Below are positions 18,942 through 20,692 of a DNA stretch of 32,865 nucleotides, one piece after another. The stretch is from Bacteroidia bacterium (GTDB lineage: Bacteria; Bacteroidota; Bacteroidia; Flavobacteriales; Flavobacteriaceae), in assembly GCA_030430615.1 (NCBI GenBank), contig JAUIKV010000005.1, positions 1-32,865 on the forward strand. The letters run 5' to 3'. A program made the translations under genes and the position numbers. Positions within the stretch are counted from its first letter, which is position 1. Each line of letters begins with the position of its first letter. The notes under the pieces were generated by a model that was not told the origin of the DNA, ran no database searches, and worked only from the letters and a program-made list of their open reading frames with translations.

Positions 18942-19000
18942 GAAACTTCATTTTTTTACCCTTTTTTACAAGCAAAACCCCTTTGCTTAATATTTGCGAG

Positions 19001-19037
19001 AGCGCAGTCGACGAACTTTCTGAGATTGCGCTTTTTT
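19001..19037 (+). terminator. Intrinsic terminator of the CBM48 gene
   Basis: A 9-bp stem, AGCGCAGTC (19001-19009) pairing with GATTGCGCT (19024-19032) with one G-U pair, has a 14-nt loop and is followed by a T tract (19032-19037). It lies 60 bp after the CBM48 stop. Confidence 0.8.
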
Positions 19038-19044
19038 ATTGCAT

Positions 19045-19077
19045 AAAAAAAGCTGTTTCAATTTGAAACAGCTTTTT
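19045..19077. terminator. Strong bidirectional terminator hairpin
   Basis: AAAAAGCTGTTTCAA (19047-19061) is the perfect reverse complement of 19063-19077. The GC-containing stem is flanked by A and T tracts on both sides, giving T5 in the plus direction and T7 in the minus direction. It serves the leftward 78-codon gene with its structured 3' end and backs up the CBM48 terminator. Confidence 0.85.
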
Positions 19078-19082
19078 ATCTT

Positions 19083-19198
19083 AAGACATATCCTCTATCA
19101 GAACCCTTCGGCTTCCTTCTTCGCAGGGTAGTGTTTCATCTTTTCCCCCTCATTGAACAATTCCCTGCTCTGCACTTCCGAAAACAGGATATGTCTTT
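19083..19198 (-). ncRNA. Candidate structured RNA element (nested stems) at the 3' end of the 78-codon gene
   Basis: Three nested complementary pairs fold this 116-nt stretch. The outer stem is AAGACATATCCT (19083-19094) with 19186-19197, 12 bp perfect. The middle stem is TTCGG (19107-19111) with CCGAA (19178-19182), and on the minus-strand RNA it extends by two G-U pairs. The inner stem is GCAGGG (19123-19128) with CCCTGC (19163-19168). The wobble extension works only for the leftward transcript, where a terminator follows within 10 nt. It could be a 3' UTR structure, a processed small RNA or a regulatory element. An overlapping short frame is noted in the findings. Confidence 0.45.
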
Positions 19199-19433
19199 AA
19201 TTTGTGATGATCCTTTCTATCAGCTGATTTTCTTCTTCATTGAGCTCGCACCCTTTTAACGAAACCAATAACCTGGACAGGCGATCCCTGTCCTGCAAGG
19301 GCACTTCTTCGACTTCATGGTCTATCTGATTCAACAGCTCCATCACCTTTTTTACCGCAACCAAGTTCTTCTGCTCCCGGCAGACCCGTTCTCTTGCTTC
19401 CTCTTCGATTGCGATCAGTATCTCCTTGATCAT
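19197..19433 (-). CDS. Small uncharacterised helical protein (78 aa)
   Basis: Seventy-eight residues from the ATG at 19433 (a GTG one codon upstream is also possible). The sequence is highly charged and looks almost wholly alpha-helical: IKEILIAIEEEARERVCREQ, then VKKVMELLNQIDHEVEEVP, then DRLSRLLVSLKGCELNEEEN. I recognise no family. A TAATTTTG element (19448-19455, minus) lies 14 bp upstream, and a palindrome lies 22 bp beyond that. The frame stays open for 32 more codons after the TAA stop, with coding-like composition. The gene diverges from the XRE-type regulator gene. Confidence 0.6.
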   Translation of the reverse strand: MIKEILIAIEEEARERVCREQKNLVAVKKVMELLNQIDHEVEEVPLQDRDRLSRLLVSLKGCELNEEENQLIERIITN

Positions 19434-19447
19434 CACTTAATTTTATA

Positions 19448-19455
19448 CAAAATTA
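19448..19455 (-). promoter_or_regulatory. Putative -7 element (TAATTTTG) of the 78-codon gene
   Basis: An exact TAnnTTTG match, ending 14 bp before the ATG at 19433. There is no TTTG-type -33 element; instead the palindrome box CATGTCGT begins exactly 22 bp upstream, as at the second copy (20648-20685). That suggests a regulator-dependent promoter. Confidence 0.55.
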
Positions 19456-19475
19456 CGCGTAACAATCGGTTGGGC

Positions 19476-19492
19476 ATACGACATGAAATGTC
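19476..19492. promoter_or_regulatory. Palindromic operator candidate, copy 1
   Basis: It reads ATACGACATGAAATGTC, containing the inverted repeat GACAT-GAA-ATGTC (19480-19492). It lies in the divergent region between the 78-codon gene and the XRE regulator gene (ATG 19573). Copy 2 lies exactly 1200 bp away on the other side of the regulator gene and matches at 15 of 17 positions. Binding by the adjacent helix-turn-helix protein is inference. Confidence 0.55.
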
Positions 19493-19572
19493 ATGTGGTC
19501 ATAAAAAAGTTTCAACGCCTATTTTTCTTAAATTTACAGATAGGCCCTGAACTGCGAAAATACGTGGCAAAC

Positions 19573-20442
19573 ATGATAAAATACAATGACATCGGGGAGC
19601 TTTTGATTGACTTCAGGAGAATCAACAGCATGTCTCAATCAGACTTTGCAGATGCTCTGGATGTAGACATCCGCACCATTCAGAGATGGGAAAACGGAGC
19701 AACCCTGATCAAGCCTGAAAAGGAGGAGGACATTGTGATGCTTACATTGCTTCCTTATCAACTGATCAGGAACCTCAACGCGAGCATTCCCATTCCGACC
19801 TTTTACGATTTCAGTCTGCGAAAATACGCCCTCAACGAACTCGACGACGAGTTGCCTGAAGCTTCCTGGTTCAAGTCTAACCTGGAAAAAGCGACAAAGC
19901 GAATTCGCACCCTGGATCACGAGTCCGACATTGATTATTTGGAGCGCTACATGCAGTTTCATAAAAAAATCAATCGGAATCTGAGCGCCGTGATCAAGGA
20001 AGCCTCAAGGATTTTGCCTGAGATGAACCTGATAATTACCGATGATTCGGGTTACTACTCAGGTCATTCTTTGATTTTTCCGATCAAAGAAAGTGCCTAC
20101 ATGCGCCTTCGTTCTCGCGAAATGGATGAGAGCCAACTCAAAGTTGATGACCTGATGCGTCCTGACCAGGCAAAACGACCGATATACTACGGATTCGATA
20201 TCACTGCTGACTGCAATGACAATATCTTTTATATAACAGGACAATTGCTCCGTGTGATCCGGGAGAAATCCGATAAGGACTACCTGTATTGCGCGATCCC
20301 GTTTCGTTCGGACAATTTTGAACTGAACAAAGAGATAGGGCTGAATATCATCTGGGAAGGTGAGAAAGGTGTCAATCAATACGGACTGGAAGTGGCGCCG
20401 CGATTTCAGGAAGGCAACTTTCGGGACTTTCTAAAAAAATAG
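19573..20442 (+). CDS. XRE-type helix-turn-helix protein with unassigned C-terminal domain
   Basis: A 289-residue protein from the ATG at 19573. Residues 7-60 form a Cro/C1-type helix-turn-helix (FRRINSMSQSDFADALDVD, then IRTIQRWENGATLIKPEKE). A helical linker (about 95-145, HESDIDYLERYMQFHKKINR) leads into a mixed alpha/beta C-terminal domain of about 140 residues that contains SGYYSGHSLIFPIKESAYMRL and LYCAIPFRSDN. That part faintly recalls a GNAT fold without an acetyl-CoA loop, but I would not assign it. An ATG-less extension to 19483 is possible but would run through the operator. It is flanked on both sides by the paired palindromes, as expected for a local regulator. Confidence 0.75.
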   Translation: MIKYNDIGELLIDFRRINSMSQSDFADALDVDIRTIQRWENGATLIKPEKEEDIVMLTLLPYQLIRNLNASIPIPTFYDFSLRKYALNELDDELPEASWFKSNLEKATKRIRTLDHESDIDYLERYMQFHKKINRNLSAVIKEASRILPEMNLIITDDSGYYSGHSLIFPIKESAYMRLRSREMDESQLKVDDLMRPDQAKRPIYYGFDITADCNDNIFYITGQLLRVIREKSDKDYLYCAIPFRSDNFELNKEIGLNIIWEGEKGVNQYGLEVAPRFQEGNFRDFLKK

Positions 20443-20647
20443 TCCCAACCTTATGAAAATCCTTCGCACTTAACGTATACTAGTAAATCCTAATATCCCC
20501 CTTGATTTACTAATGAACAGGAAATCCATGTCGGTTGGGACGTTCCTCAATTGATCTAATCTAATTCGGTGTCTAACCTTTTTATCTTGGCAAATAAATA
20601 CAAGATGTCTCAATTTCGGACTATAATTACTAACTCCTAATCCGGTA

Positions 20648-20655
20648 CAAAAATA
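20648..20655 (-). promoter_or_regulatory. Second leftward -7 element (TATTTTTG), paired with palindrome copy 2
   Basis: An exact TAnnTTTG match on the minus strand. The box CATGTCGT of palindrome copy 2 ends exactly 22 bp upstream, the same spacing as at 19448-19485. It would start a leftward transcript near 20640, running toward and antisense to the 3' end of the XRE gene. Confidence 0.45.
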
Positions 20656-20675
20656 AAACCCATACACGGACAGAA

Positions 20676-20692
20676 ATACGACATGTGATGTC
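20676..20692. promoter_or_regulatory. Palindromic operator candidate, copy 2
   Basis: It reads ATACGACATGTGATGTC with the inverted repeat GACAT-GTG-ATGTC (20680-20692). It differs from copy 1 only in the two bases at the centre of the dyad, and lies in the same orientation 1200 bp away. Confidence 0.55.

Follow-up and report, generated by a model that had tools for sequence, protein, structure and literature searches.

A conserved structured RNA immediately 3' of a small-protein gene in Flavobacteriaceae and its candidate sRNA regulon

The question raised by this locus is what a set of nested RNA stems does between the stop codon of a small gene and its terminator, where a reading made from the sequence alone had seen more order than a normal 3' UTR needs and had considered a trans-acting small RNA, an element that confers stability or an RNA of a new class. 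The window, by which we mean the whole stretch of DNA that was analysed, comprises 32,865 nt of a Bacteroidia bacterium (Flavobacteriaceae), assembly GCA_030430615.1, contig JAUIKV010000005.1, positions 1-32,865. The structured domain, referred to here as RNA-1, is about 116 nt long, starts directly 3' of the stop codon (UAA) of a 79-codon gene and is followed by a terminator hairpin.

Fold and conservation of RNA-1

The features of the transcript on the minus strand are as follows.

19197..19436, minus strand: 79-codon gene upstream of RNA-1, probable ATG start at 19433
19083..19198, minus strand: nested-stem domain of RNA-1, based on fold, shuffles and pairing across relatives (backed by loci L011-L017, L019-L021, L023, L024 and L036)
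19186-19197 with 19083-19094, minus strand: outer stem of RNA-1, 12 bp, MFE fold
19163-19168 with 19123-19128, minus strand: 6-bp stem GCAGGG/CCCUGC of RNA-1, MFE fold
19145-19151, minus strand: apical loop of RNA-1 containing GAGGGGG
19047-19077, minus strand: intrinsic terminator predicted to end the transcript of the 79-aa gene and RNA-1, a perfect 14-bp hairpin with a U-run

A middle stem of the UCGGAA/UUCUGA type lies between the outer stem and the GCAGGG/CCCUGC stem, and all stems are properly nested, including the short innermost one that closes the GAGGGGG loop. RNA-1 together with its terminator (152 nt, minus strand) has an MFE of -52.5 kcal/mol, with shuffles averaging -30.7 (z -6.2, 0/200 shuffles), which bears out the nested 12-bp, middle and inner stems and the following terminator described in the sequence-only reading; the domain without the terminator, with its limits set by eye, still reaches a z of -3.9 (0/300 shuffles). 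That description of the fold was right, but it underrated the loop, and the innermost apical hairpin is weak in this genome (4+2 bp, with internal mismatches) and stronger in relatives. The plus strand of the region folds as well, as expected for any inverted repeat. The gene, its promoter and the loop motif kept in relatives identify the minus strand as the transcribed one.

Searching with the 79-aa protein yielded 15 loci in 14 of the 22 genomes of the genus, a Lutimonas-like group of Flavobacteriaceae that includes Lutimonas halocynthiae and L. saemankumensis. A G4 loop of the GAGGGG type is retained in 13 of these loci and is absent in L018 and L022, although both carry the 79-aa gene. The nested fold, with an A/G-rich G4-5 loop at its centre, follows the stop codon in 12 loci and precedes the gene in one more (L023/L034), where the RNA-1-like structure sits between promoter and gene; L036, which is outside the 15-locus set, has the RNA-1 design with a very long stem. 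Two close relatives keep RNA-1 at 82% identity, with exchanges in the outer stem such as C-G to U-A, and a terminator is found at the matching place in the relatives with a different sequence. Single-base indels between the relatives break any reading frame and no small ORF is shared, which excludes the possibility, raised earlier, that the stem arms are conserved merely as coding sequence.

Compensatory change in the 12-bp stem had been named as a check. Among the three alignable RNA-1 sequences the signal is weak, with 2 double-change pairs and covariation not above shuffles, whereas it is strong across the divergent loci and in a second RNA described below. As the variable arms kept MAFFT from aligning the RNA-1 groups together, pairing was tested by straddling-duplex shuffles in place of a covariance model. 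Here the two segments that flank the G4 loop show better pairing than their shuffled versions, with a Fisher p of 2e-13 over 14 loci, of which those of the same group are non-independent, and of 1e-9 when each divergent group is represented by a single locus; the test is individually weak in L013, L015 and L020. The outer-stem sequences are unrelated between the groups (AAGACAUAUCC, ACAUGCAUUCG, AAAUUCAUCAU, GGUCCGGAAU, AUCUCAAUC) and yet they pair.

Rfam release 15 contains no family for RNA-1 at gathering or relaxed thresholds, the best sub-threshold matches being terminator hairpins (rli61, 36.6 of 50 bits), and the Rfam scan of the window gave no match of any kind. Because the stems pair despite unrelated sequence, the indels exclude coding and Rfam is empty, RNA-1 is supported as a selected, structured, non-coding RNA. 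The earlier idea of a new RNA class stands to that extent; RNA-1 is a new RNA family and not a categorically new class.

The operator-promoter unit, its regulator and RNA-2

Upstream of the 79-codon gene lies a palindromic operator with a promoter box, next to a divergent regulator gene, and a second unit of the same kind is found on the other flank of this gene.

19480-19492, minus strand: operator GACATTTCATGTC, promoter of the 79-aa gene/RNA-1 transcript
19448-19455, minus strand: -7 box TAATTTTG, with a 24-nt spacer from operator GACATTTCATGTC (unit 19448..19492)
19573..20442, plus strand: divergent Xre-type (HTH_3) regulator with a C-terminal GNAT-like domain (longest ORF 19483-20442)
20680-20692, minus strand: second operator GACATCACATGTC, promoter of RNA-2
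20648-20655, minus strand: -7 box TATTTTTG, 24 nt from operator GACATCACATGTC (unit 20648..20692)
20433..20642, minus strand: RNA-2, free-standing, about 210 nt, with a U-run terminator
20533-20541 with 20442-20450, minus strand: outer stem of RNA-2, GUCCCAACC/GGUUGGGAC
20479-20514, minus strand: apical hairpin of RNA-2, AUUAGUAAAUC[AAGGGGGAUAUUAG]GAUUUACUAGU

The composite site consists of GACA-N5-TGTC, then 24 nt, then TAnnTTTG, the last being the -7 box used by the main sigma factor of flavobacteria (PMC9723704). It is present in nearly all divergent units examined, and the distance is exactly 24 nt in 60 of 66 pairs of operator and -7 box from loci chosen solely by protein or RNA matches. 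Applied genome-wide within the genus, the pattern gave at least 58 sites and its reversed control 0. The sites are spread over 14 of the 22 genomes, precisely those in which the 79-aa gene is present. In a sample of 301 genomes of the family, composite sites occur in all 18 genomes with a full regulator homologue (1-13 each) and in about 5 of the approximately 282 remaining ones, the reversed control giving about 20 over the whole sample. This co-occurrence ties the operator to the regulator. The operator overlaps the expected -33 position or sits just upstream of it, and no clear -33 element was found at the operator-promoter units, which together suggest that the regulator may activate transcription through them. 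Directly upstream of RNA-1 itself there is no such unit; having no promoter of its own, RNA-1 would need to be processed from the mRNA or would act within it.

The HTH_3 domain of the regulator scores 24.8 bits against a Pfam cut-off of 23. Its C-terminal part, mostly modelled with a pLDDT of 70-96, has a GNAT fold with 46 matches at E <= 0.001, nearly all of them GNAT. The acetyl-CoA motif RxxGxG/A was not seen by eye in an alignment of 12 regulators, so that an acetyltransferase activity appears doubtful, and from a GNAT fold without this usual motif we infer a ligand-sensing role. The 79-aa protein is small, all-helical and conserved; it has no family in Pfam, NCBIfam, PADLOC or PHROGs, and an order-wide search gave no credible match outside the genus. 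In other genera, similar small proteins adjoin the regulator.

RNA-2 is convergent with the regulator gene and overlaps its 3' end, and no ORF follows the second site. Its apical hairpin, which has a GGGGG loop, is the longest-stem G4-loop hairpin in the whole window on both strands. The RNA is conserved in eight genomes, with 6 pairs changed on both sides and 89.9% of cells paired (0/500 shuffles), far above slid controls; its 5' half is conserved and contains UUAGACACC as well as a segment, AUUAGGUUAAGUGC, that is unpaired. An outer stem, a nested middle stem, a G4-5 loop and the operator-promoter unit are common to RNA-1 and RNA-2.

The neighbours of the locus are HTH, CBM20/48-type and carboxylase genes. 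A retron ncRNA with a1/a2 inverted repeats was considered and rejected, as no reverse transcriptase is among these neighbours. At 18976-19040, 3' of the CBM-type gene, a GCAAATATTAAGC box beside a sequence-variable hairpin (GAGCGCAG...CTGCGC) is conserved in the genus and is probably the terminator region of that gene. The composite site is also found upstream of another gene (METLTKSKYSTWYHPYKP...) at L114, L118 and L083 (genomes G012, G018 and G014), which we take to be alpha-glucan-phosphorylase-like; together with the CBM20/48-type gene beside the window locus, this hints at a link to glycogen metabolism.

Possible modes of action of RNA-1

We consider it probable (about 0.6) that RNA-1 is a new sRNA-type module, formed as the 3' end of an mRNA and belonging to a new regulon of sRNAs and small proteins under the control of one regulator. 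According to this model, the divergently encoded HTH/GNAT-like regulator would bind GACA-N5-TGTC, which precedes the sigma-A -7 box by a constant 24 nt, whereupon the mRNA is made; one transcript would contain the 79-aa protein and then RNA-1, and a second one, RNA-2, would be driven by the same regulator. RNA-1 could act as an sRNA while remaining on the mRNA 3' end or after being cut from it, protected by the long outer stem and the terminator. Its contact would be made by the G4-5 loop, which is purine-rich and exposed, either as a seed for C-rich sites in target mRNAs or as a binding site for a protein. This reading receives indirect support from the free-standing RNA-2, which has the matching nested architecture, G4-5 loop and operator-promoter, and from the operator-promoters in relatives that drive RNAs without a protein. 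Long complements of the loop near start codons gave no convincing target, most matches lying antisense inside ORFs. Within 14 nt of an AUG, UCCCCC is found 100 times in the own genome and 152 times in G001, as opposed to 44 and 68 in the reversed controls; in G004 and G014 the count is not above the control. A wider proposal, to which we give slightly less than an even chance, is that of an undescribed regulatory system of Flavobacteriaceae, in which a one-component HTH/GNAT-like regulator would switch on structured sRNAs through an operator at an invariant distance from the -7 box. The sRNAs would be 3' ends of small-protein mRNAs or stand free, and their G4-5 loops, or different motifs in other genera, would be a common effector site that acts with the co-made small helical protein.

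The stems and the terminator could instead act only in cis, shielding the 79-aa mRNA from 3' exonucleases or tuning its translation or termination. In most loci RNA-1 is found solely on this mRNA, just after the stop codon and without a promoter of its own, and an outer stem whose sequence changes freely would fit a mechanical barrier. A plain barrier has no need of a conserved unpaired GAGGGG loop, however, and the terminator hairpin already shields the transcript end; in addition, RNA-2 has the same loop and nested architecture with no ORF, and at L023/L034 the structure precedes the gene instead of following it. We therefore regard a purely cis-acting element as unlikely. Alternatively, the loops of RNA-1 and RNA-2 could titrate a protein, be it the 79-aa protein, the regulator or an RNA-binding protein, in the manner of the decoy RNAs of the CsrB/RsmY type, which carry a purine-rich motif in hairpin loops and of which CsrB titrates CsrA. 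RNA-1 resembles these in its purine-rich loop motif and in the presence of several RNAs per circuit that show the same G4-5 loop, and it shares a promoter with a small, helical, conserved protein in the same genomes. It differs in that each RNA has a single loop and no array, and in that the NGGA core is missing from the loop in groups B and C (AGGGGUUA). Moreover, Foldseek gave no match for the 79-aa protein, hence no relative with an RNA-binding fold, and the regulon RNAs of other genera carry different motifs (UUUUCAU, UUUGGUU), so that a scaffold or decoy role is considered quite improbable.

Two further explanations concern the origin of the conservation. A 13-codon ORF (AUGAAACACUACCC...) could use GAGGGGGAAAAG as its Shine-Dalgarno sequence, since GAGGGGG lies 5-6 nt upstream of an AUG in the window and in the two nearest relatives, but these three ORFs differ in where they stop and are similar over 6 codons only, an AUG is mostly lacking there in groups B-F, and the loop of RNA-2 occurs without an ORF. 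With few AUGs in the relatives and single-nucleotide indels that break the frame, this explanation was rejected as having very little chance of being right. The 12-bp terminal inverted repeats flanking RNA-1 would also suit the end of a dispersed repeat or mobile element of the REP/MITE type, an explanation that we find scarcely credible, as the structure keeps its position in every relative and shows no target-site features, and it is refuted in this genome by the RNA-1 copy number of one.

Related systems and further members of the candidate regulon

In Enterobacteria, sRNAs derived from 3' UTRs, such as those of the CpxQ, SroC and RbsZ type, come from mRNAs under stress or regulator control. 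Like them, RNA-1 is a structured RNA with a terminator just after a stop codon and has no promoter of its own; a difference is the free-standing RNA-2 of the same architecture, which has its own promoter. Structure lies between the stop codon and an intrinsic terminator, and it is conserved independently of coding, including its pairing, as is characteristic of 3'-UTR-derived sRNAs, which by analogy would be the nearest kind to RNA-1. Within the Bacteroidota the nearest system would be the FopS family: FopS/GibS of Bacteroides thetaiotaomicron form a multi-member sRNA family with one FopS member derived from a 3' UTR (PMC11697453). Common to both are several related sRNAs per genome, sigma-A-type promoters and one shared exposed motif. 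Compared by description, the FopS members have a 5' seed in common, while the motif at this locus is a G4-5 loop at the apex of a long nested stem, and the adjoining HTH/GNAT-like regulator with its fixed operator and the co-transcribed small protein are further differences; no sequence relation was noted, the window being without any Rfam match. The Rfp sRNAs of Flavobacterium psychrophilum are structured and belong to the same bacterial family, and the same TAnnTTTG -7 box was defined there (PMC9723704). They are set apart by description, as a word search of that paper finds no mention of a palindromic operator or an Xre-family regulator. In the open-licence literature, a system that joins an operator at a fixed distance with an HTH/GNAT-like regulator and with both free-standing and 3'-end RNAs appears to be undescribed. 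To our knowledge, very few sRNA circuits have been reported in Flavobacteriaceae, and most of them have no known transcription factor. At this locus the genome gives direct access to the regulator, its operator, the promoter and the RNA products, and the 24-nt spacing provides a near-specific signature for listing the regulon, with its sRNAs and small proteins, in any flavobacterial genome. The regulon is directly testable, since culturable species carry it.

Two more operator-promoter sites are present in the own genome (G000:C150:3505-3549 and G000:C149:844-888; L099/L088 and L098/L075). One precedes a gene for 74 aa with an sRNA-like 3' end, in which UUUUCAUA...UUAGGUUUUAAGUUGGUUA and a strong terminator are found, and the other precedes a lipoprotein gene of about 149 aa. 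In other genera, terminator-ended RNAs stand alone behind operator-promoters (L042, L043, L046, L047, L051, L054), and elsewhere in the family other operator-promoters drive small proteins. A k-mer enrichment over 17 regulon RNAs found the UUUUCAU and UUUGGUU motifs in the RNAs of other genera; both are absent from RNA-1. UUUUCAUA and GUUUGGUU recur in free-standing or 3'-end RNAs of other genera (L042, L063, L078, L089, L131, L159 and others) and are a possible second effector motif of the regulon. Some genomes, represented by L160, L159 and the sites of G676/G491, have as many as 12-13 operator sites, and the spacers of many of these are nearly identical (CCATAAAACCTCTAAACC), which suggests a recent multiplication of regulon units.
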